Under the pieces are notes generated by a model. That model saw only the letters and a program-made list of their open reading frames with translations, did no database searches and had not been told where the DNA came from. From contig QQVO01000021.1 in assembly GCA_003388505.1 (NCBI GenBank), positions 62,001-126,000 on the forward strand: a DNA stretch of 64,000 nt. Direction: 5' to 3'. This stretch comes from Planctomycetota bacterium (GTDB lineage Bacteria > Planctomycetota > Planctomycetia > Planctomycetales > Planctomycetaceae). Position 1 is the stretch's first letter. Each line of letters opens with the position of its first letter. Both the position numbers and the translations under genes were made by a program. Positions 5,337-31,327 of the stretch are shown piece after piece.

Positions 5337-5394
5337 AGGAGGGCTCCGGCGAAACAAGTCGCGCGGTTCGACGTGGAGTGGAAGCGGCGGGCTT

Positions 5395-5409: not shown

Positions 5410-5414
5410 CCTGC

Positions 5415-5443: not shown

Positions 5444-5446
5444 CAG

Positions 5447-5479
5447 ATTCTACAGAGAACCCATAGTATTCTATAGAAT
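5447..5479. promoter_or_regulatory. Tandem operator-like sites between GntR and SDR genes
   Basis: A perfect 12-base palindrome, ATTCTATAGAAT, lies at 5468-5479. A near copy of its left part, ATTCTACAGA, lies at 5447-5456. The two start 21 bases apart, two helical turns, so both would face the same side of the DNA. They sit directly at the 5' end of the SDR gene. Short AT-rich palindromes of this kind are typical operators for FCD-type GntR repressors; assignment to this regulator is inferred. Confidence 0.45.
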
Positions 5480-7787: not shown

Positions 7788-7810
7788 TGATGCATGGACG
7801 AATCGGTCGA

Positions 7811-7916
7811 TTAGAGCAAATTGCTCTACCATGTGTCCGCGTCGAGCGGAATTCGGACTGTCGAGGCCGAGAATCCGCGAGACAGATCGCCAACGCTGCC
7901 TTGCAAAGCGCTATAA
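7811..7916 (+). repeat. Interspersed ~105-bp element, copy A
   Basis: Copy A of a five-member family (others at 18408, 40034 inverted, 47885 and 51799). It starts TTAGAGCAAATTGCTCTA, a hairpin with 8-base arms, and ends GCAAAGCGCTATAA. The 5' end and the reverse complement of the 3' end match at 10 of 14 positions, so they form imperfect terminal inverted repeats. An internal GTCCG...CGGAC pair adds structure. It fills much of the 252-base gap between the CoA-transferase and the ECF gene, in the direction of the upstream gene. The rest of that gap (7917-8039) shows nothing clear. Confidence 0.85.
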
Positions 7917-8039
7917 AAGCGATTCCTCGCGGATCGGCTCAGCAAAAAAACGGCTGCTTCACTTCGATTTCACGTGCGGTGAGGACGGTTACGGACAATA
8001 ATCAGGTTCAACTGATGACTGCCCATCATTCGTAACGCT

Positions 8040-8663: not shown

Positions 8664-10357
8664 CCGATTCCCGGGCATCGACCGACCGCGACGACGCGGA
8701 GCAGGAGCAGCGGCTCTTCGCTCTGCTCGATGGCTATCTGGAGTCGGTTCGCTCCGGGGAATGCGACCCCGAATCGCAGACGCCCCCCGAGGAACTGCTC
8801 GAGGCGTTCCCCGAACTGGGACAGCTTCTGGATTGCATCGATTCGCTGGAGTCGGCCGGCCAGGAGTGGAATCCCCCGGAGGTGTCCTCGCCCTCAGCGG
8901 AATCGGGAGAGGATCAGGAGACTGTCTGCGCCGGCAGTGTTACGGGCGGCAGCAGCCTGCAGCAATTGCCGTGCAGGTTCGGAAACTACGAATTGCAGGA
9001 GATCATCGGCCGCGGCGGCATGGGGGTCGTCTATCGGGCGCGGCACGTTTCACTCGACTCGTTCGTCGCCATCAAGCTGATTCGGGCCAACCAGCTCGCC
9101 ACTCAGGACGAACTCAAGCGTTTCTATCAGGAGGCGCGGGCGGCGGCAGGGCTGCGTCACTCGCACATCGTCAAGGTGCACGATGTGGGAGAATACGAGG
9201 GCCAGCACTATCTCGCGATGGATCTCGTTGAGGGTGATGACCTCTCCCAGATGATCGCGCCCGGTCGGCCACTTTCAGGTGAGCGGGCCGCCGAGATCAT
9301 GGCGGAAGTCGCTCGCGCGGTTCACTATCTGCATCAACATGACATCGTGCACCGCGACCTCAAGCCGTCGAACATATTGATCGACGCCGACGGCGAGCCG
9401 CACCTGACCGACTTCGGGCTGGCGAAGCTGCTTTCGGCCGACAGCCGGGAGACGACCACCGGAACGATCATCGGCACGCCGAGCTACATGGCGCCGGAGC
9501 AGGCGGGTGGACACTCATCACGGGTGACGCCCCTGAGCGACGTCTACAGCCTCGGGGCAATCCTGTATGAACTGCTGACCGGCCAGCCTGTCTTTCGGGA
9601 AGAGAACCCGCTCGACACATTGCTCTGCGTGCTGGAGCGCGAGCCCCAACTCCCTCGATCGCTCAATGCGGCGATCCCGACGGAACTTGAGCAGATTTGC
9701 CTGCGTTGTCTGGAGAAGGCGCCGGAGCGGCGTTACGCGTCGGCGCTGGACGTCGCTGAGGATCTTGAGCGGTATCTGCAGTCCGAGCCGCTGCAACTCC
9801 CGGCCGTCAGTCTCGGGCATCGGTTGCGAAGATGGGGCCGCAGAAAGCCGGCGTTCGCCTCACGGTCGCTCGGGCTGACATTCATCGCAGTGATCGTGCA
9901 GGGCAACTATCTGATCGACGGCGCGGGAGCAGTCCACCACTGGTCGATCATGGGCGTATTGCTGACTTGGGGAGCGTTGTCTTACCTCCTGCAGCGGTTG
10001 CTGTCGGCCGACTACGCCCCGCGTTCTGTGGAATTCGCCTGGGCGACCGTCGACGCGGTTCTGTTCACCGCGCTGCTGCTGCTGGCGAACGGCCCGCCGT
10101 CGAGTTTGCTGGCCGGCTATCCGTTGCTGATTGCGGCTGCCGGGCTCTGGTTCCGTGTGCGGCTGGTGTTCTTCATGACCGGCGTGTGTCTGGCGGGTTT
10201 TCTCGTGGTTTCGGCACTGCGCACGCCGCCGGATCAGCCCGGCCATTATCCCGGAATCGTCGGGGCGATCCTGCTCGTCATGGGTGGCATCGTGGCGTAC
10301 CAGGTTCGACGCATTCGCGTTCTCAGCCGCTACTTCGAACGCCGCGCATCCCGTTAA
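8654..10357 (+). CDS. Membrane-bound Ser/Thr protein kinase (PknB/Hanks type)
   Basis: A 567-residue kinase counted from ATG 8654, which overlaps the ECF stop by 10 bases and gives translational coupling. Residues 1-105 are an acidic soluble leader. The kinase domain follows: glycine loop GRGGMG at about 119-124, VAIK lysine near 141, HRDLKPSN at about 233, DFG at 253-255 and APE at about 280. All catalytic residues are present. From about 415 onward come several hydrophobic segments (for example FTALLLLANG, LVFFMTGVCLAGFLVVSAL), probably four to six membrane helices with no sensor domain after them. The likely partner is the adjacent sigma factor, inferred from overlap. The frame extends to 8603 but that start is less likely. 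Confidence 0.92.
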   Translation: MSLTDSRASTDRDDAEQEQRLFALLDGYLESVRSGECDPESQTPPEELLEAFPELGQLLDCIDSLESAGQEWNPPEVSSPSAESGEDQETVCAGSVTGGSSLQQLPCRFGNYELQEIIGRGGMGVVYRARHVSLDSFVAIKLIRANQLATQDELKRFYQEARAAAGLRHSHIVKVHDVGEYEGQHYLAMDLVEGDDLSQMIAPGRPLSGERAAEIMAEVARAVHYLHQHDIVHRDLKPSNILIDADGEPHLTDFGLAKLLSADSRETTTGTIIGTPSYMAPEQAGGHSSRVTPLSDVYSLGAILYELLTGQPVFREENPLDTLLCVLEREPQLPRSLNAAIPTELEQICLRCLEKAPERRYASALDVAEDLERYLQSEPLQLPAVSLGHRLRRWGRRKPAFASRSLGLTFIAVIVQGNYLIDGAGAVHHWSIMGVLLTWGALSYLLQRLLSADYAPRSVEFAWATVDAVLFTALLLLANGPPSSLLAGYPLLIAAAGLWFRVRLVFFMTGVCLAGFLVVSALRTPPDQPGHYPGIVGAILLVMGGIVAYQVRRIRVLSRYFERRASR

Positions 10358-10553
10358 GTGTTTCTCCGAAACGACTTACAGGCTTCAGTGGATTCCGTCG
10401 CGATGAGCGTTGTGCCGCGTCCAGCCTCGTGGCCACTCGAGTCCGCCGCGAACCGGCCCGCTCCCGAATGCGCAGATTCTCCGAGGGGTTCCGAATGATC
10501 GGGGACGCGACGGTGCGATTGGTCAACGTGGGTGGAATGGCGGGGGACCGGTG

Positions 10554-10582
10554 TTGAGGCGGTGTTGATTCGTCGTTATAGT
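10554..10582 (+). promoter_or_regulatory. Sigma-70-like promoter of the fab-like cluster
   Basis: TTGAGG (10554-10559) and TATAGT (10577-10582) are separated by 17 bases. A start near 10589 lies downstream of the in-frame ATG 10532, so the dehydratase probably begins at GTG 10634. The preceding stretch from the kinase stop (10358-10553) shows no gene. Confidence 0.5.
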
Positions 10583-10633
10583 GTGCCGTTTCGTGACTTA
10601 CGGGATCAGTACCTTACAGAGGCGGACGTCGAC

Positions 10634-11116
10634 GTGCGGTTTTCGTTGATTGATCGCATCGATGCCATTGAGCCTGGGGAATCGGTCACGGCGCTCAAGA
10701 CTCTCTCTCTTGCCGAGGAGTACCTGGCGGACCATTTCCCCGGTTTTCCGGTGATGCCCGGCGTGCTGATGGTCGAGTCACTGGTTCAGGCCGGCGCGTG
10801 GCTGATGCGGCAGACGGAAGAGTTCCGTTACAGCGCGGTGCTGCTCAAGGAGGCGCGGGCGGTCCGGTTCAATAATTTCGTCTCGCCCGGCAAGACGTTG
10901 CGGGTGGAGTGCAAGGTCAAGGAGCGAGACGAGAAAACCTACACACTGTTGGGAAGTGGAACAGTTGAAGGAGCGTCCGCAGTCAGCGCTCGCCTGACCC
11001 TGGAACAGTTCAACCTGGCTGACCGCGATCCTTCGCTGGCGGCCTCCGACGAGCGACGCATTCAGAAACTCCGCGAACTCTTCGACGCTCTCTACCATCC
11101 GAAAACGGCGGACTGA
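10634..11116 (+). CDS. fabZ: 3-hydroxyacyl-ACP dehydratase, FabZ-like (first copy)
   Basis: A single-hotdog dehydratase of 160 residues from GTG 10634. The active-site region LADHFPGFPVMPGVLMVESL gives catalytic H34 and E48. The start was chosen because these residues then fall at exactly the same positions (34 and 48) as in the second copy at 12568, and because a promoter lies at 10554-10582; an in-frame ATG at 10532 would add 34 residues. It would remove water from 3-hydroxyacyl-ACP. The C-terminal 30 residues (from about 130) are hydrophilic and extend beyond the usual FabZ fold. It is first in a four-gene cluster with FabG, ACP and another FabZ. Confidence 0.88.
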   Translation: MRFSLIDRIDAIEPGESVTALKTLSLAEEYLADHFPGFPVMPGVLMVESLVQAGAWLMRQTEEFRYSAVLLKEARAVRFNNFVSPGKTLRVECKVKERDEKTYTLLGSGTVEGASAVSARLTLEQFNLADRDPSLAASDERRIQKLRELFDALYHPKTAD

Positions 11117-11193
11117 CATCGCTTCCCGTTGTTGCTCAGCCCAGGTTCGGGGACGGACGGCGCACGAATTCCAAGATACGAAAACGGTGCAAT

Positions 11194-11943
11194 ATGAGAC
11201 TGGCAGGCAAGGTCGCGCTGGTGACAGGCGGCACGCGCGGACTGGGCAACGCGATCGTCCGCACGCTGGCCCGCGAAGGGGCCAAGGTGGCGTTCGTTTA
11301 CCGCTCCAACAAGGATCTGGCGGACCAGGTTGTTGCGGATCTCGCAACCGACCAGCACGAGGCGATCGCGATCGCCGCCGATGTCAAAAGCAAAGAAGAC
11401 GCCGATGCCGCCGTTCAGACGGTCCTCGACAAATGGGGGCGGCTCGACATTCTGGTGAACAACGCCGGCATCATCAACGACATGCTCCTGGCGACGATGA
11501 AGCCGGAAGACTGGCAGGTCGTCATCGACACCAACCTCACGAGTGTGTTTAATTTCTGCCAGGCCGCTGTGAGGCCGATGATGTCGGAGCGCTACGGCCG
11601 CATCATCAACATGTCCAGCGTTGCGGCCGACTTCGGCAGTTCCGGCCAGGTCAATTACGCCGCGAGCAAGGGCGGAATCCAGGGATTGACGAGGTGCCTG
11701 TCGAAGGAGATCGCGCGGCGGAACATCACGGTCAATGCCGTGGCTCCCGGTTTCTGCGAGACGGAGATGACCGAAGCGGTGCGGAACGCGGCGCCGACGC
11801 TCGCCAAGAGCATTCCTCTCAAGCGATTCGGACAGCCTCAAGACGTCGCCAACGCAGTTCTCTTTCTGGCCAGCGACGAGGCGTCCTACATTACGGGCCA
11901 CGTGCTGACAGTCGACGGAGGATTGACGCTAGGGGCGATGTAG
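11194..11943 (+). CDS. fabG: 3-oxoacyl-ACP reductase, FabG-like
   Basis: A 249-residue SDR of the FabG type: TGGTRGLG at 11-18, NNAG at 89-92, catalytic Ser in NMSSVAADFG at about 141, YAASK at 155-159, and the FabG end motif ITGHVLTVDGGLTLGAM. It would reduce 3-oxoacyl-ACP with NADPH. Context between a dehydratase and an ACP gene makes FabG much more likely than a generic SDR. No strong Shine-Dalgarno is seen before ATG 11194. It is a separate lineage from the SDR at 5479, which sits with a CoA-transferase. Confidence 0.9.
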   Translation: MRLAGKVALVTGGTRGLGNAIVRTLAREGAKVAFVYRSNKDLADQVVADLATDQHEAIAIAADVKSKEDADAAVQTVLDKWGRLDILVNNAGIINDMLLATMKPEDWQVVIDTNLTSVFNFCQAAVRPMMSERYGRIINMSSVAADFGSSGQVNYAASKGGIQGLTRCLSKEIARRNITVNAVAPGFCETEMTEAVRNAAPTLAKSIPLKRFGQPQDVANAVLFLASDEASYITGHVLTVDGGLTLGAM

Positions 11944-15731: not shown

Positions 15732-15938
15732 GTTACTTTACTTCCTGGGAATCGTTGCACCTGAGTCAAGTTTCAGCGGCGGGCGGGAGCGGGTTCTCGC
15801 TTCCGAGTGGTCGCTCGTACGGTTCGAGGCCCTGCCTCGTAGAGACGTTTTGAATTGCAGACACTACAATTGAAGAGCGGGATCCCGACGCCGTTCGGGT
15901 TCCCACAATCAATGAGACAGCTCATCGAGGAGTCGAGC

Positions 15939-18410
15939 ATGATTCGTCACGGCCACAATCGCACATGTTTGCTGCGGTCAACCGTCCTCGGTCTGGCGGC
16001 GTTCGCCGCCTGCTGCGTGAGCAGCCGGTCTGAGACGTTTGCCCAGGAAACACCTGTGGGAACCCTCGACGTCCAACCCGCGGCCTTCACCCTCGCGTCC
16101 GCCCGGGCGCGGCAGCAACTTGTCGTCACGGGACAGTTCGGCCCTGAAGACATTCGCGACGTCACGGAAGAGGTCCAGTACGAATCTTCAGATCCCGCGG
16201 TCGTCACCGTCGAGGGCTCGCTGGCCCAGCCGGTCGGAAACGGGACGGCCGTAATCACCGCCCGGATGGGAGACAAGTCGGCCGCCGCCGAAGTCACGGT
16301 GACCGGCTTCGAAACGCCCTCTCCCGTGAGCTTTCACAACGAAACGCTCGCTGCGCTGACGAAGGCCGGCTGTAACATGGGGGCCTGTCACGGTTCACCC
16401 TCCGGCAAGGGAGGCTTCCGGCTGTCGCTCCGCGGATTTGATCCGCCACTCGACGTCCTCACCCTCCGCACCGAATTTCAGGGGCGTCGCACGAACATCG
16501 TCAATCCGGATGAGAGCCTGTTGCTCAAGAAGCCGCTGATGGAAGTGGCACACGGCGGCGGACGCCGACTCTACAAGGGCGACCCGGCCCATGTGGCGCT
16601 GCGGACGTGGATTGCCGAAGGAATGCGGCTGGATCCCGAAGACGAGCCCACACTCGATCGGATCGAAGTCTTCCCGAAAAAGCGGGTCTTCCACCAGACC
16701 GGCGACCGGCAGCAGGTCATCGTGAACGGTTATTTCAGCGACGGCAGCGTCCGCGATTTGACGCGCCTCACCGTCTTCAGTTCATCTTCCGAGTCGGTGG
16801 CAGCCGTCGGCAAGGGCGGCCTGGTAGAAAAAGAAGGCCGCGGCGAGACGGCGATTCTCTGCCGGTTCCTCGACAAGATGGACACGAGCTACATCACGTT
16901 CCTTGAAGAGGTCGAAGGCTTCGCCTGGAACGACCCGCCGGAATACAACTTCGTCGACGAGCGCATCAACGAGAAACTGCTCCAATTGCAAATTCCCCCC
17001 TCGGAACTCTGCAGCGACGACGAATTCCTCCGCCGCGCCTATCTCGACGCGACCGGCCGTTTGCCGACGATCGAGGAGACCGAGGCGTTTCTCGCCGATG
17101 TCGGCGCTGACAAGCGTTCCCGACTGATCGACGCGCTGTTGGAGACGCCGGACCATGCTGCATTCTGGGCTCTCAAATGGGCCGACGTGCTCCGGGTCAA
17201 CAGCGGTAAACTGAATGCGACCGGCGTCGCGAAGTTCAACCGTTGGATCTACAACGGCGTGCTCAATGACCAGCCGATGGACGAGTTCGCCCGCGAACTT
17301 CTGACGGCGACCGGCAGCGTCTACGAGCACCCCGCCGCCAACTACTGGCGCGCCAGCCGCGATCCTACTGACGCCACCGAGACGACCGCCCAGTTGTTCC
17401 TGGGCATCCGCATTCAGTGCGCCAAGTGTCACAACCACCCCTTCGAACGCTGGTCGCAGGACAATTACTATGGAATCGCGGCGGCCTTTGCGCGGGTCGG
17501 TCGCAAGAACGGCCCGACGCCGAATGACGAAGTCATCTTCATGCAGGACAGCGGCGACGTCACCCAGCCGCGGACCGGCCAGACGATGAAAGTCCACCTG
17601 TTGCTCGAAGGCGATGTCGACGTGCCGGCCGACCAGGATCGACGGAAGGTGTTCGCCGAGTGGCTGACCACTCCCGACAACCCGTTCTTCGCCCGGGCGA
17701 CTGTCAACCGCATCTGGGGACATGTGATGGGACGGGGCATTGTCGACCCCGTGGACGACTTCCGCGACTCGAACCCTCCCTCCAACGCAGCGCTGCTGGA
17801 TGAACTCTCCACAAAGTTCGTGGAGAACGACTTCAGCCGCAAATGGGTGATTCGCACGATCATGAACAGCGCAACGTATCAGCGCAGTTCGCGAACCAAC
17901 GAATTGAACAAGGACGATGAGATCTACTTCTCGCACGCCTCGACCCGGATGCTGACGGCCGAGCAGTTGCTCGATGCGATTTGCGCCGTCACGGACGTCG
18001 CTGAAACGTTTCCGGGCGTCCCGCCGGGCACCCCTGCGACGCAGCTTCCCGAACCGCCGAAGGACCACTACTTCCTCAAGATTTTCGGTCAGCCGCAACG
18101 GGAAATGGCGTGCGAATGCGAGCGGTCGAATGAATCAAACCTCTCGCAGGCGCTACAGATGATCAACGGGCCGACAGTCCACAACAAGCTGCGGGACGAC
18201 AACGGCCGCATCAACCAGATGATCGCTGCCGGAGCGTCCGACGAAGAGATCATCACGGACCTGTACCTTTCAGCCGTCAGCCGTCCGCCGACGACGGAAG
18301 AACTGCAGGCTTCCAAAAACCACATCGCCGCTTGCGAAAACCGGCGCTTCGGCCTGGAGGACGTCGGTTGGGCGGTCCTCAACTCCAAAGAGTTCCTGTT
18401 CCAGCACTAG
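15939..18410 (+). CDS. Secreted Ig-like-DUF1549-DUF1553 protein
   Basis: A protein of 823 residues from ATG 15939 (MIRHGHNRTC, then a signal peptide ending near ETFAQ). A bacterial Ig-like (BIG2-type) domain is at about 35-125. A cysteine motif CNMGACHG resembling a heme site follows at about 145. A second Ig-like stretch precedes DUF1549 (about 335-560), with CxxCH in CAKCHNHPFERW. The C-terminal part is DUF1553 (about 590-800, RATVNRIWGHVMGRGIVDPV). It resembles the proteins at 1354 and 28329 but lacks LamG, and no DUF1501 gene follows it. Its stop codon TAG forms the first three bases of repeat copy B, so that element lies exactly at the gene's end. Confidence 0.9.
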   Translation: MIRHGHNRTCLLRSTVLGLAAFAACCVSSRSETFAQETPVGTLDVQPAAFTLASARARQQLVVTGQFGPEDIRDVTEEVQYESSDPAVVTVEGSLAQPVGNGTAVITARMGDKSAAAEVTVTGFETPSPVSFHNETLAALTKAGCNMGACHGSPSGKGGFRLSLRGFDPPLDVLTLRTEFQGRRTNIVNPDESLLLKKPLMEVAHGGGRRLYKGDPAHVALRTWIAEGMRLDPEDEPTLDRIEVFPKKRVFHQTGDRQQVIVNGYFSDGSVRDLTRLTVFSSSSESVAAVGKGGLVEKEGRGETAILCRFLDKMDTSYITFLEEVEGFAWNDPPEYNFVDERINEKLLQLQIPPSELCSDDEFLRRAYLDATGRLPTIEETEAFLADVGADKRSRLIDALLETPDHAAFWALKWADVLRVNSGKLNATGVAKFNRWIYNGVLNDQPMDEFARELLTATGSVYEHPAANYWRASRDPTDATETTAQLFLGIRIQCAKCHNHPFERWSQDNYYGIAAAFARVGRKNGPTPNDEVIFMQDSGDVTQPRTGQTMKVHLLLEGDVDVPADQDRRKVFAEWLTTPDNPFFARATVNRIWGHVMGRGIVDPVDDFRDSNPPSNAALLDELSTKFVENDFSRKWVIRTIMNSATYQRSSRTNELNKDDEIYFSHASTRMLTAEQLLDAICAVTDVAETFPGVPPGTPATQLPEPPKDHYFLKIFGQPQREMACECERSNESNLSQALQMINGPTVHNKLRDDNGRINQMIAAGASDEEIITDLYLSAVSRPPTTEELQASKNHIAACENRRFGLEDVGWAVLNSKEFLFQH

Positions 18411-18512
18411 AGCAAATTGCTCTACCGTGTGTCCGCGTCGAGCGGTTTTCGGACTGTTCAGCCGGAGATTCCGCGAGACAGATCGCCAACACTGTTTCGC
18501 AAAGCGCTATAA
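18408..18512 (+). repeat. Interspersed ~105-bp element, copy B
   Basis: Nearly identical to copy D at 51799 (about three differences). Its first bases TAG are the stop codon of the gene ending at 18410. It ends GCAAAGCGCTATAA, 20 bases before a strong terminator. Confidence 0.88.
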
Positions 18513-18531
18513 TCATCGTGCCTGAGAAATA

Positions 18532-18569
18532 CGGCGCGGTCTCCTCCACAGGGGCCGCGCCGTTTTTTT
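18532..18569 (+). terminator. Rho-independent terminator
   Basis: CGGCGCGG (18532-18539) pairs perfectly with CCGCGCCG (18555-18562) and is followed by seven T residues (18563-18569). It would end the transcript of the DUF1549/DUF1553 gene, with repeat copy B inside the 3' untranslated region. The remaining 130 bases to 18699 show nothing clear. Confidence 0.88.
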
Positions 18570-18699
18570 GTCGAACGCGTTCGTTTCGTCGCATCCGCAA
18601 GTCGGTCGTCGTGATTCGTGCCCGAGGCGATCATGAGCATCGCGCGAGCGGCAGCACACGGCCCGCCAGCGCCCCGCTGTCCTGCCCGATCCAGACGAC

Positions 18700-20445
18700 T
18701 CACTCCGGCGAACCTGTCCCTTGACGCAGGAATCGAAGCGCGCCGGTCGGCACGTCCTTCCACACTTCGACGCCGCCCACCGGCCAATAGACTCGAAGTT
18801 CGTCGATCGAACGAGCTGGTCCGACCGCAAGCTGAATTCGCGGGTCATGACTGGCCTGGAAACTCTCCCCGGCTGGAACATGCGCCGCGTGGATTTCTCC
18901 GTCGACAACGGCGTCCACACGAACTGACAACGCCCTGCGGGAGGAATGCGTCCCGATCAACTGCACCATCGCGACCTCCCCCGCCCGATCACTCTCATTC
19001 CTGAGCAGCGCGGGAGGAGCGAGGAGATGGCTGACCACCAGGTCCGGATCAAAATCGTTGTCGATGTCGCCGTAGGCGGCCGCCCGTCCCAGCCAGGACG
19101 CGCGAAAGTAGTCTCCCGCGGAGTCAGAGACGTCGACAAACCGGCGGCCTTCGACGTTCTCGAGCAAACTGGGACGCATGCGGTAGGTTCCGCCCGACTC
19201 AGTGGCGTCCCAGAGGTGGCCGTTGGCGAAGTACAGATCGGGCCACAGATCCGCATTGAGGTCCCGCGCCACGATTCCGAAGTTGAGCATTTCCCGCGAT
19301 GAGGCGTCGACTCCAAGTTCCGCGTTCGCCGCCAGAAACCCGTGCGGACCGATGTTTTCGAAGACATCGACGACCTCCTGGGCGAAGTTCGTGACGAACA
19401 GATCAGGGCGACCGTCGCGATTGTAATCACTGACCGATACTCCCATGCTGCTTCCGAGTTTCCCGTCTTCACTTGTTGCGCAGCCGTGGAGGACTCCAAC
19501 CTCACGAAATTGCAACTCACCTTCGTTCTGAAACAGGAAATTGCGCGTCGTGTCATTCGCAACGAAGATGTCCGGTCGAAAGTCACCGTTGAGGTCGGCA
19601 ATGGCCAATGCCAGACCCTTTCCCTCCGGAGCGAGCGCAATGCCTGCCTCCGTACCCAATTCGACAAAACGTCCGTCGCCCGAATTCCGATAAAGCAGGT
19701 CGGGGAGCCCGTCGTGCCGCATCGGACTCGGAATCCTGTCGCCGGTGACGTCCTCGGGTTGCCAGTTTACATAGTTCACAACGAACAGTTCGGGATGTCC
19801 ATCCGCATCAAGGTCGGCAAACGCGGCGCTGGTCGCCCATCCGGTGCTTTCCACGCCCGCCTCACCGGTCACATTCGTAAATGTCCCGTCACCGTTGTTG
19901 CGCCACAACGCGTTCGCTCCGTATGCGGCAACGTACAGATCGCAGAATCCATCGTTGTCATAGTCGCCGGCGGCGCAGCCCTGGCCGAATCCAATGAATC
20001 GCAGACGCGCCTCGCCCGTTGAATCGTTGAACCGCCAGAAGGCTGACTGTCGATAAAGGCGACTTCGAGCGCTGGCGTCGGCGGGCGCGGCAAAACTCGA
20101 TCCATTAACCAGGAACACATCGAGAGAACCGTCGCCATCGGCGTCGAACAGGGCGACGCCCCCCCCGTTCTGCTCCGTCATGAAGTTCCGGTCGCTGGGC
20201 GCGCCGTAGTAACGGAAATTGATTCCCGAAATCTCAGGCGACACTTGCGCGAACCGAATTTCGGACGTCTCGGTGGAAACCTCGTTTTCCCGGGCGGCGG
20301 GCTCCACTGGCCTCGATGCAGGACGGGTACCGGGTGCATCGTCACTGCGACGCGAGAGCAAGAGGAACGCGATGGCCAGGACCATACCGCATCCGCCGAT
20401 CGCCGCTCCGAAATATACAAAGCTCCTGCGGCCGGTCTGCTTCAT
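18700..20445 (-). CDS. CRTAC1-type FG-GAP/ASPIC-UnbV protein, membrane-anchored (left cassette)
   Basis: A 581-residue protein with one N-terminal membrane segment (about 11-32), so it is anchored or exported. A beta-propeller of FG-GAP/VCBS repeats follows, with calcium-loop-like DxDxDG motifs (DADGDGSLDVF, DYDNDGFCDLY, DLDADGHPELF, DYNRDGRPDLF). The C-terminal 80 residues form an ASPIC/UnbV domain (VPAGESFQASHDPRIQLAVG). It is clearly paralogous to the protein at 23132: both start the propeller with YYGAP[ST]DRxFMTEQNGGGVAL. It follows the TPR gene by 15 bases. A role in binding or assembling surface material is plausible; no enzymatic activity can be named. Confidence 0.9.
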   Translation of the reverse strand: MKQTGRRSFVYFGAAIGGCGMVLAIAFLLLSRRSDDAPGTRPASRPVEPAARENEVSTETSEIRFAQVSPEISGINFRYYGAPSDRNFMTEQNGGGVALFDADGDGSLDVFLVNGSSFAAPADASARSRLYRQSAFWRFNDSTGEARLRFIGFGQGCAAGDYDNDGFCDLYVAAYGANALWRNNGDGTFTNVTGEAGVESTGWATSAAFADLDADGHPELFVVNYVNWQPEDVTGDRIPSPMRHDGLPDLLYRNSGDGRFVELGTEAGIALAPEGKGLALAIADLNGDFRPDIFVANDTTRNFLFQNEGELQFREVGVLHGCATSEDGKLGSSMGVSVSDYNRDGRPDLFVTNFAQEVVDVFENIGPHGFLAANAELGVDASSREMLNFGIVARDLNADLWPDLYFANGHLWDATESGGTYRMRPSLLENVEGRRFVDVSDSAGDYFRASWLGRAAAYGDIDNDFDPDLVVSHLLAPPALLRNESDRAGEVAMVQLIGTHSSRRALSVRVDAVVDGEIHAAHVPAGESFQASHDPRIQLAVGPARSIDELRVYWPVGGVEVWKDVPTGALRFLRQGTGSPE

Positions 20446-20460
20446 CGCATACTACTCGGG

Positions 20461-21711
20461 CTATGTGTTCGGCCCAACCGCCGGTTGGTCGGAAACAGCC
20501 TCCGCCATCCAACGCCATGCGCCCGCCGTCATCGACCTGCCCAGCGCGTCGTAAAGCTCGGCCATGCGCCGGCACTCTGCCGGCGTCGGCCTTGGCATCG
20601 TGAGGTTGCGTTGTAGATCCCACAGATCCAGTTCGGCTCGGGCAAGTTCGTGAGACCGTGCAAAGGCGCGCTGGGCTTCGGGAATCCGTTCCAGACGCAG
20701 CAGCAACCGGGCCCGCCGAGACAAGTAGCTCGTTTCCGCCGGGCGAATCGAGAGCGCGCGGTCGATGAACCCCAGCGACTGTTCATAGTCGCCGGCGATT
20801 TCACGAATCCGGCAGCGGATCTCCCAATACCGATCGTCTTCCTCCAGTTGTGCGGCCATGGTCGGATGAAGCCGCGAACCCGACGTTTCGTCGTCGAACA
20901 GAACCTCACTGGCCGACGGAATATCCATCTGATCGACGAAAAAACGGGACACGACGATTCGCACATAAGGAACTTCGCGGTGCTCATCGGCTGCTTCACG
21001 GAATAACTGCTCCGCAGTCCTTACCTGCCCGGCGCTTCCGTAACATTGGGCGAGCGCCAGGCGGACCGTCGGCTGATCGGGATCACGCTGCAGAGCCTCT
21101 TGCAGCACGGGAAGGCATTGAGCCGCCGGAGGGGGCTCCACTTCGGCCACCGCCAGATCCCGCAGGATTTCCAACGTCTTCTCAAATGCGTCGCTCCCAG
21201 CACGCGTTTGGAACGGCTGTGCAAGCTCCAGCGCCTCTTCCAGAACGGCCACCGCCTCGCGACGGCGCAACGTGGCGAGCAGCAAACCGCTCCATTGACG
21301 CCGTGCGACCCAGGAATGCGGATACTTCAGCAGATGACTCTTCAGAACCGCCTCAGCCCGCTGCAGTTGGTGATCCTTCAGCAGCGCCGCTGCGAGGTTG
21401 ATCTGCGCGTCTTGATGCGCCGGTGAGTCGGCGGCAACCTGCGAAAGGGAACTAATTGCGGCCGGCCAGTCACCCTCCTGGGCATAGGACAGGCCTTCAA
21501 GGTGGAGCGCCTCCGGATGGTCCGGCTCCCACCAGAGCAGACGCTCCAGCGCGGCCCGCGCTTGGGCCGGTTCCCTCTGTTGGAGGGAACGGGCCGCCAG
21601 TGCCAGCCGTTCTTCGTTCCCGCTGCGGAGGTAGGCGGCGCCGGCGATGCAGCCGATGCATGCGATCGGCACGGCCAGAGTCACGAGCTTTACAAATCGA
21701 CGATTACGCAT
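20461..21711 (-). CDS. Membrane-anchored TPR protein (left cassette)
   Basis: A 416-residue protein with an N-terminal membrane anchor (about 8-28, LVTLAVPIACIGCIAGAAYL) and a series of tetratricopeptide-like helical repeats (for example AQARAALERLLWWEPDHPEA and AEAVLKSHLLKYPHSWVARR). It is upstream of the CRTAC1-type gene and certainly co-transcribed with it (15-base gap). It resembles the TPR protein at 21907 in order and in many residues (LLWWEPDHPEAL against LLWSDPTHHRAL; C-termini ALGRSMTAGAWRWMAEAVS against RLGHSEQAADWRRVGEAIS). Likely a scaffold for its propeller partner outside the cytoplasm. Confidence 0.87.
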   Translation of the reverse strand: MRNRRFVKLVTLAVPIACIGCIAGAAYLRSGNEERLALAARSLQQREPAQARAALERLLWWEPDHPEALHLEGLSYAQEGDWPAAISSLSQVAADSPAHQDAQINLAAALLKDHQLQRAEAVLKSHLLKYPHSWVARRQWSGLLLATLRRREAVAVLEEALELAQPFQTRAGSDAFEKTLEILRDLAVAEVEPPPAAQCLPVLQEALQRDPDQPTVRLALAQCYGSAGQVRTAEQLFREAADEHREVPYVRIVVSRFFVDQMDIPSASEVLFDDETSGSRLHPTMAAQLEEDDRYWEIRCRIREIAGDYEQSLGFIDRALSIRPAETSYLSRRARLLLRLERIPEAQRAFARSHELARAELDLWDLQRNLTMPRPTPAECRRMAELYDALGRSMTAGAWRWMAEAVSDQPAVGPNT

Positions 21712-21855
21712 ACGGTGACTACGGCAGAACGCTCAACTCGAATCGACGGCATGGAGAAGTGCTGGACGCCAGTCGGTCGGTGCTCAGAAGACGTCCCGCA
21801 TCGAGTATGGTCCGGAGAGCAACAAAACAGACACAACGCCGCCGATTTCACCTTT

Positions 21856-21864
21856 TGCTATCAT
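21856..21864 (+). promoter_or_regulatory. Extended -10 promoter-like site for the right TPR gene
   Basis: TGCTATCAT fits an extended -10 box 43 bases before GTG 21907; no good -35 is present. It lies in the 195-base divergent region between the two cassettes. Confidence 0.3.
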
Positions 21865-21906
21865 GGTGAATGGGACAGAACAAGTCGAGCGATCATTGGA
21901 TGCAAC

Positions 21907-23103
21907 GTGAAGGGCGCCCGCCGCGGAATCCGAGTCAGTCTCATCGTGCTTGTGCTCGCCGGAGCGGGCTACGGCTCCCTTCACTGGTACATTCGCAGAT
22001 CAGCGGAAGAGACGCTCGCGGCGGCAGAGGCGCATCTGCGGCGGAGAGAGAACGCTGAAGCGCGCGAAGAGCTTCAATGGCTGCTCTGGTCCGATCCCAC
22101 ACATCACCGCGCATTGCTTATCAGAGGCGTCAGCCTGAACGCCGACCGGCGTTTCCCGGAGGCGATTCGAACCCTCGCACAGATTCCCGAGAACTCGGAG
22201 AGTAGCGAGGCCGCCGGAATCGCCCTCGCGTCCTCTCTCATTCTTGACGGGCAGTTTGAGCGAGCGGAAGACGTTTTGCGGAACCACGTCGAACGTTTTC
22301 CTCAATCGCTCAACACCGGCAGGCGACTCGCAAAGCTATACCTCATACAGCTTGACCCGCGGAAAGGCGCCGCCGTGTTGCTTGAGCACTGGAAACGCAA
22401 CCGCGACGAATTGTCGATACTGCCTGACTTGCTGGATATCGAAGCGCGGTCGATTACACCGCAGGAACACGTTGAACGGCTGGAGGCGGCTGACCGCAGC
22501 CATCCGCAGCAGTCGTCTGTCGTGCTTGCGTTGGCTCGCGCGTATCATCAGATGGGAATGCCGGATCGCGCCAAAGAACGATTTGATTCGGCAATTCGAT
22601 TGAGTCCCGACGATCTCCCGACGAAGATTGCCGCAACGGAATTCCTGCTCGACGTGGGAGACCTTGAGTCCGCCCAGAGTCTGCTGCCGACCGACATTGA
22701 CGAACAGATCCATGACAGTCTTTATGCCGACAGATACTGGTACGTCGTTGCGCGGATCGCCGAGAGCCGCGGGCAGATCGCCGATGCGCTCAATTCCCTG
22801 GAGAAGGCGATTGCGTTGCGTCCTGATAATGAGTCTTATTTGCTCATGCAGGCGTCGCTCCTCAGGCGATTGGGCCGCCGGGAGGAATCGAAGCGGGCTG
22901 CAGAAGTCGCGGCGGAACTCGCGGCGACGCGGGCGCGCCTCTTCGTTCTGGCAAACGAAATCAATCGGGAGTCCCCAAGATCCGAGCATTGCTCCGAGAT
23001 TGCAACACTGATGGAACGTCTCGGACACTCCGAACAGGCGGCTGATTGGCGACGGGTCGGCGAGGCCATCAGTGCGGCGTCACGACAACACGTATTCCCT
23101 TGA
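21907..23103 (+). CDS. Membrane-anchored TPR protein (right cassette)
   Basis: A 398-residue protein from GTG 21907: VKGARRGIRVSLIVLVLAGA gives an N-terminal membrane anchor like that of the left copy. The frame stays open back to 21502 but that part is antisense to the left TPR gene. TPR-like helices fill the protein (AEAREELQWLLWSDPTHHRA, PDRAKERFDSAIRLSPDDLP, ALNSLEKAIALRPDNESYLL). Paralogous to 20461-21711 and divergent from it. The CRTAC1-type gene follows within 30 bases, so the two form a unit. No enzymatic motif is visible. Confidence 0.85.
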   Translation: MKGARRGIRVSLIVLVLAGAGYGSLHWYIRRSAEETLAAAEAHLRRRENAEAREELQWLLWSDPTHHRALLIRGVSLNADRRFPEAIRTLAQIPENSESSEAAGIALASSLILDGQFERAEDVLRNHVERFPQSLNTGRRLAKLYLIQLDPRKGAAVLLEHWKRNRDELSILPDLLDIEARSITPQEHVERLEAADRSHPQQSSVVLALARAYHQMGMPDRAKERFDSAIRLSPDDLPTKIAATEFLLDVGDLESAQSLLPTDIDEQIHDSLYADRYWYVVARIAESRGQIADALNSLEKAIALRPDNESYLLMQASLLRRLGRREESKRAAEVAAELAATRARLFVLANEINRESPRSEHCSEIATLMERLGHSEQAADWRRVGEAISAASRQHVFP

Positions 23104-23131
23104 CGCCTCGATCTTCCCCCTTGAATTGGCG

Positions 23132-24952
23132 ATGACCGGACACTTCCATTTCTGCAACCGCAGCCTGCTCTTGCTCCTTCTCATCACCGTTGCGTTCGGC
23201 GCGTTTCCGTCGTGCAGGAGCCGATCAGATCAACCGGATACTCCGTCCGCTGCGGAAACACATGGAAACGAGCCGGCGACAAACAACGAGCGCTCAGACC
23301 CGGCTTCTGATGCGCCCCCCTCTCCCTTCCGATTCGAATTGATGACTGCCGAAGCCGGTGTCGATTTCGTCTATTACGGCGCGCCGACGGACCGGGCGTT
23401 CATGACCGAACAGAACGGCGGAGGCGTCGCCTTGGCCGATTTCAACAACGACGGCCGGCTCGACGTCTTCTTCGTCAATGGGTCTGACTTCAGACTACCG
23501 GGCCGGGGACTGGAGCAATCGAATCAACTCTATCTGGCGCAGGGTGCATTCCGTTACAAGAATGCGACGCGGGCAGCGGGACTTGTGGCCCACGGGTTCG
23601 GCATGGGGTGCACGACCGACGACTACGACAATGATGGATTCAGCGACCTGTTCGTCGCAGCATACGGACAACTCCGGTTGTGGCGCAATAACGGCGACGG
23701 AACCTTCTCCGAAGTCACCCAGGAGGCGGGATTCGATTCCAAACTCTGGGGGACCAGCACCGCATTCGCCGACCTCGACGGCGACGGACTCTCCGATCTC
23801 TATGTCGTCAACTACGTCGACTGGTCGCCCGAGGAGCCCCCCTGTCACCGGCCGGGGCATCCCGAGATGCTCACCGTCTGTTCCCCCATGAACCGGTCCG
23901 GACAGCGCGATGCGCTGTACCGGAACACCGGCGACGGGAGGTTTGTTGAAATCGGCGCCGAGGCCGGCATGGCAGACGCGGCAAACGCCAAAGGACTCGC
24001 GTTGTCGATTTCCGACTTCGATCAAGACGGGCGTCTCGACGTTTACGTCGCCAATGACCAGACGCCCAACGATCTGTACCGAAACGTGGGACAGATGGAA
24101 TTTGAAGAGATCGCCGTCGTTCAGGGAGTCGCGATCAGCAGCGACGGCGTTCCCGGCGCGAGCATGGGGGTCGCCCTCGCGGATTACGACGGCAACGGGC
24201 AGTTGGACATGTGCATAACGAACTTCCGGAATCAGGTGAACGATCTCTTCGCGAACTACGGCGAAGCAGGCTTCGTCGCCGTCAACGCGCAGATGGGAAT
24301 CGATCTCGTTTCGCGGCCGATGTTGTCGTTCGGAATCGTGGCTGCCGACTTCGATCTCGACACCTGGCCCGACTTATTCGTCGCGAACGGTCACATCTGG
24401 GATCTGACGTCGTTCGGCCCCGGCTACGAATTCGAGATGCACCCGCAGTTGCTGTGGAACCGGCGTGGGGAGAGGTTCACCGACGTGAGCGCGGATTGCG
24501 GCGGCTACTTCAAACAGCGTTGGCTCGGCCGGTCCGCCGCAGTGGGCGATCTTGACAATGACGGAGACGATGATCTGGTCGTCACACATCTCGCCGCCCC
24601 GCCGGCGTTGTTGCGAAATGACTCAAAGCGCTCGAACGAGAGCGTCAGAATCCAACTGGTCGGCACGGAAGCCTCCCGGCAGTCCCGGGGAGCGCGGATT
24701 GAGATCGTCACCGAGAAGTCCCGGCACGTTACCCAAGTCCCCGCCGGCGGCAGTTTCCAGGCCAGCCACGATCCGCGCGTGATCGTCGCGGTTCCGTCGT
24801 TGGCCGCGATCCGACAGATCAAAGTCTGGTGGCCTGGCGGGGAGATCGAGACCTGGCTCGAGACGCGCGCCGACCGCTCGGGCGATCTGCGACTGATCCA
24901 GGGAACTGGAACGCTTAGCGAGCAATCGAATGAACGCTCCCCCAGTCGCTGA
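23132..24952 (+). CDS. CRTAC1-type FG-GAP/ASPIC-UnbV protein, exported (right cassette)
   Basis: A 606-residue protein from ATG 23132 (MTGHFHFCNRSLLLLLLITV, a strong export signal; a cysteine at PSC could be lipidated but the lipobox is poor). ATG 23072 is in frame but would overlap the TPR gene. The propeller carries repeated calcium-loop-like motifs (DFNNDGRLDVF, DYDNDGFSDLF, DLDGDGLSDLY, DFDQDGRLDVY, DLDNDGDDDLV). The ASPIC/UnbV domain closes the protein (VPAGGSFQASHDPRVIVAVP). It is the mirror partner of 18700-20445 and ends 31 bases from the convergent lipoprotein gene. Confidence 0.9.
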   Translation: MTGHFHFCNRSLLLLLLITVAFGAFPSCRSRSDQPDTPSAAETHGNEPATNNERSDPASDAPPSPFRFELMTAEAGVDFVYYGAPTDRAFMTEQNGGGVALADFNNDGRLDVFFVNGSDFRLPGRGLEQSNQLYLAQGAFRYKNATRAAGLVAHGFGMGCTTDDYDNDGFSDLFVAAYGQLRLWRNNGDGTFSEVTQEAGFDSKLWGTSTAFADLDGDGLSDLYVVNYVDWSPEEPPCHRPGHPEMLTVCSPMNRSGQRDALYRNTGDGRFVEIGAEAGMADAANAKGLALSISDFDQDGRLDVYVANDQTPNDLYRNVGQMEFEEIAVVQGVAISSDGVPGASMGVALADYDGNGQLDMCITNFRNQVNDLFANYGEAGFVAVNAQMGIDLVSRPMLSFGIVAADFDLDTWPDLFVANGHIWDLTSFGPGYEFEMHPQLLWNRRGERFTDVSADCGGYFKQRWLGRSAAVGDLDNDGDDDLVVTHLAAPPALLRNDSKRSNESVRIQLVGTEASRQSRGARIEIVTEKSRHVTQVPAGGSFQASHDPRVIVAVPSLAAIRQIKVWWPGGEIETWLETRADRSGDLRLIQGTGTLSEQSNERSPSR

Positions 24953-24983: not shown

Positions 24984-25193
24984 CTATTGCGGAGGTTGTC
25001 CATCGGCGGCCGGTGGCTCGGGGCCTGCCTTTGGATCATTGGCTGGCAGGGCTTCCTCATGGGCGGGATGTGATTCAGCCTCTTCCGGTGGGACATCCGC
25101 TCCACCGCCGCCATTGCAGCCGTGGAGGACCATCAGCCCAGCGGCTGCGGTCATTGAAAATCCGATCCGTCTGACAACCTGCCAACGCCACAT
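24984..25193 (-). CDS. Small proline-rich lipoprotein
   Basis: A 69-residue protein from ATG 25193 with AAGGAG seven bases upstream. The signal peptide ends in the lipobox LHGC at about 23-26, followed by a Gly/Pro/Glu-rich tail with no fold I recognise. It lies 197 bases after the DUF1559 gene on the same strand; small lipoproteins often follow DUF1559 genes in planctomycetes. A terminator lies between them, so it may be separately transcribed or expressed by partial read-through. The frame could open at 25328, but that part is not protein-like. Confidence 0.72.
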   Translation of the reverse strand: MWRWQVVRRIGFSMTAAAGLMVLHGCNGGGGADVPPEEAESHPAHEEALPANDPKAGPEPPAADGQPPQ

Positions 25194-25390: not shown

Positions 25391-26467
25391 TTAGAACTCG
25401 CCAACCTGCTGGCCGTCCTGGATGTAATGCAGCTTCGCGTAAATGAGGTGCTCGATGTTTTCGCTCAGGAAATGGACCGAACCATCTGCGAGAACGAAGT
25501 GCGCGCCCCCCTCATGTGCACTGGAGGCCGCTCCCCCGTGATGCGACTGATAAGTCGAGTACTTCCCGTTGATGTGGTAATACTGGTTGTTGGCGTCAGC
25601 CGTGGTGGAACCGGGGTGCACCATAATGGAGGAAGCATGGTGCCTGTAGGCGGCCCAGCTTCCCTTGAAGTAGGTAAACCAGATCCCCGGTCTGTAGACG
25701 TAGCCGACATCCTGCCGCACTTCACCGAACAAAAGGGTGTTGCTTGTGCCGTCCGAAATCTCGCGGATTCTCGCCGCCCCGCTGTGACCGAAAGCGCCCC
25801 ACGGGCTGACGATGGTGCCGTCATACAGCGTTCGGAAGGGGTAGGCGTATACCCGCTTGTAGTAGCCGTAGTCAGCATTCGTCGAATAGCCAAGGCTTCC
25901 GATGGTCGGATAGTAGTTGCAGGGCCCGACGTCTCCGCCGAACGAATAGTGATTTGTGTCGGCGTAGTCTGGCACTGGCACCGGACCGGTGGGATCGGAG
26001 GGACAGAGAAAAGATGAAATGATCGTCTCGCGTGCGGGAATGGTATTGACGTTCGGCCAGCCGCAGGCCACGCCGGCGTGGGCGTACAACCCCCCCTGAC
26101 CCATATTCCCCATTGCGCACGAGAGATTGAACTGGTTGTAGAGCGCTGTCTGGTCCATGAACGGAAGCAGGAAGGTCTGGCAAACGATGTTCTGTGCCGG
26201 CCAATCCGGTGCCCCGTTCGCCGCTCCGTTGTATGTCACGAAGGACGTGCTGCCGGCTGCGATGTCTCCCGGCGGAAAAATGCCGTGGGTGTCGTGATAA
26301 TTGTGCAGGGCGACACCGATCTGCTTCAGATTGTTCTTGCACTGTGTCCGCCGCGCGGCCTCCCGCGCCTGCTGCACAGCCGGCAGCAGCAATGCAATCA
26401 GAATCGCAATAATCGCGATCACGACAAGAAGTTCAATCAGTGTAAAACCTCTGCGACGACGGGACAT
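25391..26467 (-). CDS. DUF1559 (SBP_bac_10) protein with type IV pilin-like N-terminus
   Basis: A 358-residue protein. The N-terminus [20 protein letters not shown] is a prepilin-type cleavage/methylation motif (cleavage after Gly, Glu at +5) with a hydrophobic helix. DUF1559 fills the rest, with [20 protein letters not shown] and the C-terminal H-X9-DG motif ([16 protein letters not shown]). GGAGG lies six bases before ATG 26467. Proteins of this kind are very numerous in planctomycetes and are thought to be pseudopilin-like envelope components; a specific role is not known. A promoter-like pair lies at 26533-26562. Confidence 0.92.
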
Positions 26468-28328: not shown

Positions 28329-29957
28329 ATGATGCGTACACTTCCCAAGCGGCGAATCGCGGCCCTGCTTGCCGTGTTCGCATGCGTCTGGTCCCTGGCG
28401 CCGGACGGCGCCGGAGGCGCTCCGCGGTCGCGGAGGAAACCGGGCAAGTCACAGGCCGTCAAGAACCTGCCGGAGCTGAAGACGCCGGAGGACAAGATCC
28501 GGTTTCTGGAAATGATCCGGAACACGTTTCCGGCGATTCGCAGCGGAACGCCGAACCTCTCGTCAATCACGCTGGATGAGATTCTCGACCGCTACGTGAC
28601 CGATGAAACCTCAACGCCGCTGGCCGAGGTCGTGGACGATGAGACGTTTCTCCGCCGCGTGTCGCTCGATCTGGCAGGTCAGATTCCGACCCCCGGCGGA
28701 ATCCGGCGTTTCGTCAGCAGCACGGACAAGCGAAAACGGTCCCTGGTGATCGACGAGTTGCTGGAGACCGACCAGTTCGCCCGCAAGCAGGCGCGCTACT
28801 GGCGCTCGGTTGTCTTTCACGACTCCGGCGCCAATCGCAACATGGTGAACCCCCAGGCTTTCGAGGACTGGCTGTTTGAGGAGTTCAAGGCGGGCACGGG
28901 TTGGGATCGCATTGTCGGGGAAATGGTCTCCGCGACTCCCCGGCGCCAGAAGGACGTTAAAGCCCAGGACAACGGCTGGCAGCAGGACTACGGGCCGAAC
29001 AACTTCGTGCTGGCCTGCGAGAACAAGCCGGAGGTGATGGCGGCGCAGACCGCTCGGTTGTTCATGGGGATTTCCATCGGCTGCGCGGAGTGCCACGACC
29101 ATCCGTTCGACGACTGGCAGCGGGAGCAGTTCCACGAACTCGCCGCCTTCTTTGCGCCGGGCAAGTACTTCATGAGCGATCAGTACGACCCGTCGCAGCG
29201 GACGGAGATGGAAGCCAGATTCCTGCTCGGGGAAGAACCTCCGCTGGGGTTGAAGCCGGACCAGCGCCGCGTCGCCGGCGCCGCCTATCTCATCTACAAC
29301 CCGGACAACCACTGGTTCGCTCGCGCATTCGTCAACCGGGTCTGGAGCGAACTGCTCGGCGACGGGTTCTATGCGGTTGACAGCCTCGGTCCCGACAAGG
29401 AGGTCGTGCATCAACTGGTGATTAACCGCATTGCCGCCTCGTTTCGTTACAGCGAGTTCGACGTCAAGTGGCTGTTTCGGCTGATCTGCAACTCCCAGGC
29501 GTACCAGCGCGAGATCCGCACCATCGAGGACGAGGCGGACCTGTTCACCGCCGTTCGGCCTTCGCGGCTGCGTTCCTGGGAGGTGGCCGATTGCCTCGAA
29601 ATCGTGATCGGCAAGCACGAAGGTCTGCGGAATGCCGTCACCACCGCGTTCGAGCAGAATCCCTCCATCCCCCAGCAGGATCTGGAAGGATCGCTGCAAC
29701 AAGCCCTGTTGCTGATGAACAACACCGTGCTCCAGCAGCGGATCGCAGACAGTCCTCTGAAGAAAGAACTTCTGGAACTGGATGACGATCAGGAAGTCAT
29801 CCGCCATGCCTTTCTGGGCGTCCTCGCCCGGACGCCGACGACGGACGAAACGGCGCGGTATGTCAGCTACTTCAAGCAGATCCCGGACCGGCGGGAGGCT
29901 GTTGAGGATCTGATCTGGGTGCTGATCAACTCGGCGGAGTTCACCACCAAACGTTAG
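28329..29957 (+). CDS. Secreted DUF1549-DUF1553 protein (short form)
   Basis: A protein of 542 residues from ATG 28329, giving a signal peptide (RRIAALLAVFACVWSLAPDG). DUF1549 spans about 75-330 (VVDDETFLRRVSLDLAGQIP, and CxxCH in CAECHDHPFDDWQREQF). DUF1553 spans about 330-535 (RAFVNRVWSELLGDGFYAVD, LLLMNNTVLQQRIADSPLKK). It lacks PSCyt1, Ig-like and LamG parts, so it is the most compact of the three here. A DUF1501 gene follows after 65 bases, so the pair is probably one operon. The gap upstream (28133-28328) shows no gene. Confidence 0.9.
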   Translation: MMRTLPKRRIAALLAVFACVWSLAPDGAGGAPRSRRKPGKSQAVKNLPELKTPEDKIRFLEMIRNTFPAIRSGTPNLSSITLDEILDRYVTDETSTPLAEVVDDETFLRRVSLDLAGQIPTPGGIRRFVSSTDKRKRSLVIDELLETDQFARKQARYWRSVVFHDSGANRNMVNPQAFEDWLFEEFKAGTGWDRIVGEMVSATPRRQKDVKAQDNGWQQDYGPNNFVLACENKPEVMAAQTARLFMGISIGCAECHDHPFDDWQREQFHELAAFFAPGKYFMSDQYDPSQRTEMEARFLLGEEPPLGLKPDQRRVAGAAYLIYNPDNHWFARAFVNRVWSELLGDGFYAVDSLGPDKEVVHQLVINRIAASFRYSEFDVKWLFRLICNSQAYQREIRTIEDEADLFTAVRPSRLRSWEVADCLEIVIGKHEGLRNAVTTAFEQNPSIPQQDLEGSLQQALLLMNNTVLQQRIADSPLKKELLELDDDQEVIRHAFLGVLARTPTTDETARYVSYFKQIPDRREAVEDLIWVLINSAEFTTKR

Positions 29958-30022
29958 CGACGCGTCATCATCGTCCGCTCGAGAAATTCCCAAGGGGACC
30001 GCTTTCAGGCGCAAGAACCTGC

Positions 30023-31327
30023 ATGAATTGTCCGATGCCCAACAACAACCTGCTGAACGTGTGTCTCAACCGGGACGGACAAGTCTCTCGTCGCCGGCTG
30101 CTGCAAGTCGCCGGGGGCGGCTTCGCCGGACTTGGCGGGCTCCCTTTCCTGCAGAGACTCGGACTCGCCGCCGATGAGGCCAGGCGGAACGGTCGCGCGT
30201 GCATCGTCGTGTTCCTCAACGGGGCGCCGAGCCAGTTCGAGACCTGGAACCCGAAGCCCGGAACCGAAAACGGCGGCCCCACGCAGGTGATTGACACCGC
30301 AATTCCCGGCGTCCCGTTCGCGGAGTACTGGCCCAAACTGGCCGCGATGATGAACGACGTCTCCGTGATTCGCACGATGGCCGGAAAAGAAGCGGCCCAC
30401 GATCGGGGGACGTATCACTTGTTGACCGGCCGGCGTCTCGGCGGCGCTTCGAGGTTTCCCCACTTCGGTTCGGTGGTCTCTCACGAATTGGGCGACCCGG
30501 ACGCCGAGATTCCGAACTTCATCAGCATCGGCGACACTCTGAACGCAGGCTTTCTGGGCGTCAGGTTCTCTCCGTTTGTCGTGCCCCGTGCCGGGGAGTT
30601 GCCGGCCAATGTCGAGGCGACGGTCGCGGAAACTCGCGTCGACCGCAGGCTCTCCCTGCTCGCGGATCAGGACGCCGACTTCCAGACCGCCGGCGCCGAA
30701 CGGATCGCAGCCGAACATCAGGAACTGTACCGCAAAGCCGCGCGGTTGATGACGTCCGAGCATCTGAAGGCCTTCACCGTGGAGGGGGAGTCCGATGCCG
30801 TCAAGTCGCAATACGGCAGGCATGAGTTCGGCCAGGGATGCCTGATCGCACGGCGGCTGGTTGAGTCCGGCGTGCCGTTCGTCCAGGTGCGGCGCAGCGG
30901 CTGGGACATGCACGCCAACTTGTGGCAGAACATCCCCCGCGCGGCCGGAGAGGTCGACGAAGGCGTTTCGGCGCTCCTCACCGACCTCAAACAGCGCGGA
31001 ATGCTCGAAAAAACGCTTGTCGTCGTGCTCGGGGAATTCGGCCGAACCCCCAAGATCAACCAGAGCACGCCGAACGTCGGCCGAGACCACTTCGCCAGAA
31101 ACTTCAATCTGCTGATGGCCGGCGGGGGAATCAAAGGCGGCGTCTGTGTGGGGACCACCAGCAGCGACGGCATGGAAATCGACGACCGGCCGGTGGAAGT
31201 GGACGACTTCTTCCACACGATGTGCCGCTGCATGGGCATCGACGCGGACAAGGAACTGATCACTCCCGAGGGCCGGCCCCTGCGGATCGTTGATGCCGGT
31301 GCTCCGGTTGAAGAATTGCTGTCCTGA
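30023..31327 (+). CDS. DUF1501 family secreted protein
   Basis: A 434-residue protein with a TAT-type signal (VSRRRLLQVAGGGFAGLGG). DUF1501 follows with CIVVFLNGAPSQFETWNPKP, then VVVLGEFGRTPKINQSTPNV and DHFARNFNLLMAGGGIKGG near the C-terminus, which match metal-site-like positions of the sulfatase/phosphatase superfamily. It is the partner of the DUF1549/DUF1553 protein at 28329. ATG 30035 is an alternative start. Function is unknown. Confidence 0.9.
   Translation: MNCPMPNNNLLNVCLNRDGQVSRRRLLQVAGGGFAGLGGLPFLQRLGLAADEARRNGRACIVVFLNGAPSQFETWNPKPGTENGGPTQVIDTAIPGVPFAEYWPKLAAMMNDVSVIRTMAGKEAAHDRGTYHLLTGRRLGGASRFPHFGSVVSHELGDPDAEIPNFISIGDTLNAGFLGVRFSPFVVPRAGELPANVEATVAETRVDRRLSLLADQDADFQTAGAERIAAEHQELYRKAARLMTSEHLKAFTVEGESDAVKSQYGRHEFGQGCLIARRLVESGVPFVQVRRSGWDMHANLWQNIPRAAGEVDEGVSALLTDLKQRGMLEKTLVVVLGEFGRTPKINQSTPNVGRDHFARNFNLLMAGGGIKGGVCVGTTSSDGMEIDDRPVEVDDFFHTMCRCMGIDADKELITPEGRPLRIVDAGAPVEELLS

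Follow-up and report, generated by a model that had tools for sequence, protein, structure and literature searches.

The window analysed here, a stretch of 64,000 nucleotides from a Planctomycetota bacterium, contains two related cassettes, L and R, each consisting of a gene for a TPR protein and a gene for a CRTAC1-type propeller, beside genes for a DUF1559 pseudopilin and a small lipoprotein. From sequence comparisons we propose, at what we judge to be an even chance, that the products form one extracytoplasmic heteromeric complex, with L and R as paralogous half-units and with a dedicated pseudopilin and lipoprotein. The heteromer is suggested by the co-occurrence of L and R, by their conserved linkage and by their asymmetry, and its main rival is that the two cassettes work independently.

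As originally predicted, the cassettes diverge from a 195-bp centre (21712..21906, between TPR-L and TPR-R), and all four open reading frames were found. Outward from the centre, TPR-L is followed by PropL on the minus strand and TPR-R by PropR on the plus strand. TPR-L (20461..21711, minus strand) is a TPR protein of 416 aa with an N-terminal membrane anchor, and lies 15 bp upstream of PropL (18700..20445, minus strand), a CRTAC1-type propeller of 581 aa with an UnbV domain and an N-terminal membrane segment, from which a conserved Cys pair has been lost. TPR-R (21907..23103, plus strand), also N-terminally anchored, has 398 aa and a GTG start. PropR (23132..24952, plus strand) is a CRTAC1-type propeller with an UnbV domain and has 606 aa when read from the ATG at 23132, which is a more likely start than an alternative GTG at 23072 that overlaps TPR-R. 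Next come the small lipoprotein (24984..25193, minus strand; 69 aa from an inner ATG, with a longer TTG start at 25328), whose lipobox LHGC precedes a Gly-rich stretch, and the DUF1559 protein (25391..26467, minus strand), with a prepilin N-terminal motif and an H-X9-DG end. No promoter-like (sigma-70-like) or terminator-like site was found in the 195-bp centre (21712-21906). The flanks (15855-18410 and 29906-31327, both plus strand) encode typical planctomycete PSCyt2/PSD1 (DUF1549/DUF1553) and DUF1501 proteins, and DUF1501-like genes are also close to the R side in the genomes G137, G138 and G141.

PropL and PropR align end to end with 50% identity over 580 columns (E 4e-179), and the two TPR proteins with 32% identity over 404 columns (E 4e-45). 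The motifs expected at the start and end of the propellers, YYGAP[ST]DRxFMTEQNGGGVAL and FQASHDPR, are common to both, as is the ASPIC/UnbV domain, which scores 33.6 and 39.9 bits (Pfam cut-off 23.4). Both propellers also have FG-GAP repeats above the Pfam cut-off and seven DxDxDG-type calcium loops each. The TPR proteins had been said to share the same membrane anchor and matching repeats: the Pfam domain search detected TPR repeats above cut-off in both, and each of the four proteins has one N-terminal hydrophobic segment, but the segments of TPR-L and TPR-R are unlike in sequence.

An AlphaFold2 model of PropR (50 aligned relatives) reached a mean pLDDT of 88.5 and a pTM of 0.87. The top structural match was murine CRTAC1 (9etn), with a Foldseek E value of 5.5e-31, a Z score of 42.4 and an rmsd of 2.3 over 456 residues, the next propellers scoring around Z 31; by sequence, CRTAC1 was matched at E 4.2e-15. 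As modelled, PropR is a CRTAC1-type propeller. The Cys pair and a loop stretch are absent from all eight L propellers and kept in the other members of the subfamily (43 of 43), a loss fixed clade-wide in L that fits a specialised role beside R. ASPIC/UnbV domains have been listed in Poribacteria (PMC3909097).

The divergent L/R pair is also present in three genomes of another genus (G137, G141 and G138, the last with an insert), and this recurrence puts the arrangement far beyond chance. The centre measures 149 bp in G137 and 144 bp in G141, and shows no clear conservation between the window and that genus (G137/G138/G141). The G138 insert, which splits the centre between TPR-L and TPR-R, is a gene of about 2.4 kb that matches both multihaem cytochromes and TPR (L122, 9212-11614, minus strand). 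In each of the three genomes PropR has the same DUF1559 pseudopilin as a neighbour, together with a small Gly-rich lipoprotein. In a third genus (G024), contig C62 begins with a small lipoprotein and carries TPR-R, PropR and TPR-L, all pointing the same way; PropL, followed by the start of a DUF1559 gene, lies at the end of contig C61. Because this lipoprotein follows DUF1559 elsewhere, all six genes most likely form one run in permuted order across the two contig ends. In a fourth genus (G072) both cassettes are present on separate contigs. The prediction that the related cassettes are kept together, and paired in relatives, was thus borne out across genera, in the window, G137, G138, G141 and by inference G024. 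An obligate mirror orientation was rejected, as the order differs in G024 and single cassettes are common.

Among the 170 genomes of Planctomycetaceae, L was found in all six genomes that have R, the number of L genomes being eight (Fisher 9e-10, kinship ignored). The two genomes with L but not R are G005 (86% complete) and G062 (99% complete). The latter has no detectable R propeller and no match to TPR-L or TPR-R, and has kept PropL with its DUF1559 gene; neither the TPR protein nor R is strictly required there, which speaks against the complex.

The original prediction had also suggested that the DUF1559 protein and the lipoprotein could belong with the cassettes, and here the evidence is favourable. 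The window copy matches PF07596 (171 bits) and the prepilin methylation motif (38 bits), both above cut-off, and the H-X9-DG domain was found. The 15 genomes searched hold 41 to 184 DUF1559 matches each. In eight of them (G138, G062, G141, G072, G137, G099, G097 and G059, with 41 to 80 matches each) the best match to the window DUF1559 is the cassette neighbour; with dozens of paralogues in each genome, it is telling that the same one comes out. The best match is not a cassette neighbour in G024, where a contig end truncates the cassette copy, or in G005, G025, G030, G121 and G078. A DUF1559 tree that included 36 other family members as controls puts the window protein in a six-member clade, every member of which neighbours L/R genes (support 100/98). 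The enclosing clade is cassette-linked in 11 of 13 cases and a separate clade in 11 of 11. Fisher tests of cassette linkage in these clades gave 0.008 and 0.0003 (kinship ignored). Over 23 linked pairs, propeller and DUF1559 distances are correlated (Mantel r 0.53, 0/5000 permutations, kinship ignored). The Gly-rich lipoprotein follows DUF1559 in G137, G138, G141 and G072 and stands first on C62 in G024; its mature chain starts with a GCGGG-type sequence in the relatives examined and with GCNGGGG in the window. Genes for type II/IV-type secretion ATPases and for A24 prepilin peptidases are present in the window's genome.

The mirror symmetry had been ascribed to an inverted duplication, and in its simple form this claim was not supported. 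A local inverted duplication of one cassette in this lineage would account for the mirror-image gene order and the shared domains, and the propeller tree by itself is compatible with an L+R clade: with propeller data alone, sisterhood was not rejected (p-AU 0.377). However, the identity is low, and the longest inverted-repeat DNA matches across the locus are coding stretches at 71-75%, so the event must be old. L and R form separate, well-supported clades in the propeller tree (100/99 and 99/91) and in the TPR tree (100/99 each), and both clades span four genera. Sisterhood was nearly rejected by the TPR data alone (p 0.059) and rejected by the concatenated propeller and TPR data (p-AU 0.018). 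In the joint tree R groups with the single-cassette lineages G099, G059, G097 and G095, and then with G071 and G100, and is closer to several of these than to L, which places the L/R split before the origin of those lineages; L may possibly have been lost in them. We consider the local duplication improbable and, on joint data, reject its simple form. As judged from these trees, the mirror pair consists of older paralogues that were retained or reassembled and is not a simple recent local duplication.

Single TPR-propeller cassettes, for which the original prediction had proposed a search, are common in relatives. Close relatives of PropR (E 1e-120 or better) were found in 37 of the 170 genomes, on contigs of Planctomycetaceae such as a Fuerstiella bin. 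The subfamily in the propeller tree has 51 members, and 49 of their loci could be evaluated for an upstream TPR gene. In 39 of these a TPR gene immediately precedes the propeller gene on its strand, frequently overlapping it, and about one fifth of the subfamily propellers have no adjacent same-strand TPR gene. More distant members, in the window's genome and in relatives, combine both parts in one polypeptide of about 1000 aa, the TPR repeats preceding the propeller, and such natural fusions argue for contact between the two parts. The model of one fusion (pTM 0.62) did not fix the relative placement of TPR and propeller and was dropped as an interface guide. A second head-to-head TPR-propeller pair was seen in the window's genome, fused and about 1000 aa (L067, G000:C8:76000-94000; 5308-8592, minus strand, and 8466-11546, plus strand), followed by a multihaem ORF with 8 CXXCH and a DUF1559 gene. 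G097 (L130) carries on one contig two divergent cassettes from different subclades (4504-7700, minus strand, and 15964-19118, plus strand), about 8 kb apart and each with a DUF1559 gene beside it. In planctomycetes and acidobacteria, ORFs with 4 to 8 CXXCH motifs were observed in the neighbourhood of CRTAC1-type propeller genes (L066, L067, L070, L072, L126, L128, L143, L152, L176, L185, L196 and others). A multihaem cytochrome was rejected as a core part of the set, since most L/R loci lack one.

There are 12 UnbV loci in the window's genome. When the listed gene positions were compared with uniform random placement, UnbV genes occurred in close pairs, mostly in tandem, above random placement in three of four genomes (G001, G050 and G121), and UnbV clusters lay near DUF1559 genes above expectation in the window's genome (p 3.5e-4) and in G001 (p 3e-4).

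In the complex that we propose, the N-terminal helix would hold the TPR solenoid of each half in the inner membrane, where the solenoid would dock a calcium-stabilised, seven-bladed CRTAC1-type propeller bearing the UnbV domain. The L and R halves would cooperate as an asymmetric hetero-oligomeric pair. The DUF1559 pseudopilin and the small lipoprotein would be dedicated partners of these TPR-propeller halves. A prepilin peptidase probably cleaves the pseudopilin, and an ATPase like those of type II secretion and type IV pili, with its gene at another place in the genome, probably assembles it; pseudopilin and lipoprotein together could present the propellers at the surface or couple them to the envelope. 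The output would be ligand binding. We infer the TPR-propeller contact, the L-R contact, the pseudopilin assembly and the ligand-binding output. Points against the complex are the subfamily propellers with no TPR gene next to them, the genomes in which the window DUF1559 finds its best match away from the cassette, and the great abundance of DUF1559 in planctomycetes together with its description as solute-binding (PMC2754498).

That the two cassettes work independently, each homomeric and with its own ligand, and owe their linkage to old paralogy and co-transfer, is a real possibility, if one that we rather doubt. Many relatives do with a single cassette, which counts against the complex; the joint tree does not make L and R sisters, UnbV genes cluster generally and mostly in tandem, L is alone in G062, and the cassettes lie on separate contigs in G072. 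However, independent cassettes would not lead one to expect that L is present in every R genome, that the linkage outlasts the rearrangement in G024, where TPR-L follows PropR, that a shared DUF1559 stays with both L and R, or that L underwent a clade-wide structural change. These four points favour the heteromer.

Two further readings were considered. The propellers could be carbohydrate-binding, lectin-like receptors for uptake or attachment, with the TPR protein as scaffold, the DUF1559 protein as a solute-binding or surface-fibre component, and the L/R difference only widening the ligand range. GlcNAc-binding fungal propeller lectins rank next after CRTAC1 in the Foldseek search, and published work treats DUF1559 as a family of solute-binding proteins (PMC2754498, PMC4807772). 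Yet the lectin match is one of fold only (14-17% identity, TMq 0.35-0.38) and no transporter was found among the neighbouring genes scanned, and we regard the lectin reading as unlikely. It is still harder to believe that the cassettes serve a redox system in which CRTAC1-type propellers act with multihaem cytochromes, a proposal to which we assign very little probability. It could draw on the gene inserted in G138, on multihaem ORFs close to several UnbV loci (including those on C8 and C2 of the window's genome) and on the CRTAC1-type genes that neighbour hydrazine-synthase homologues in other planctomycetes (PMC12758564), but in the window, G137 and G141 the surroundings of the L/R pair contain no multihaem gene.

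The range of CRTAC1-type propellers extends from bacteria to mammals, and their bacterial role is little known. DUF1559 is among the largest planctomycete families, as the match counts given above illustrate. The domains themselves are known; what appears new is the gene set that ties together TPR, CRTAC1-type propeller and DUF1559. Our literature search, which left most subscription journals outside its scope, returned no paper describing this set and, within the same scope, no tested DUF1559 function. A conserved set in which a single DUF1559 lineage goes with a single lineage of propellers and TPR proteins offers a concrete test of both families, and the paired L/R form is a natural case of subunit specialisation. 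More tentatively, and with more doubt than confidence, the locus might encode a planctomycete envelope machine of a kind not yet described: a dedicated DUF1559 pseudopilin and a dedicated lipoprotein would co-evolve with TPR-anchored CRTAC1-type propellers, and in this lineage the two non-sister paralogous halves would form an obligate hetero-oligomer. If true, one branch of the huge DUF1559 family would gain a defined partner and function.

Among known systems, the locus propellers share with murine CRTAC1 (ASPIC/UnbV; PDB 9etn) the seven-bladed FG-GAP propeller, the calcium loops and the C-terminal UnbV domain. They differ from it in their identity of about 20%, N-terminal membrane anchors, TPR partner gene and low UnbV score, and the L propellers also in the loss of the Cys pair that is common in bacterial homologues. 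The propeller of integrin alpha subunits is likewise an FG-GAP calcium-loop propeller, and the profile weakly matches the integrin alpha-V sequence, but integrins have legs where the locus proteins have an UnbV domain, and no beta subunit is present here. The DUF1559 protein resembles the pseudopilin-like DUF1559 (SBP_bac_10) family in its prepilin N-terminus and H-X9-DG end, and differs from the scattered copies of that family in belonging to clades tied to TPR-propeller cassettes. The closest counterparts in domain content are the fused planctomycete TPR-CRTAC1 proteins, which have the same domains in the same order, two of them head to head on C8 of the window's genome, but which are one polypeptide where the locus has two genes and which fall on another branch of the propeller tree.
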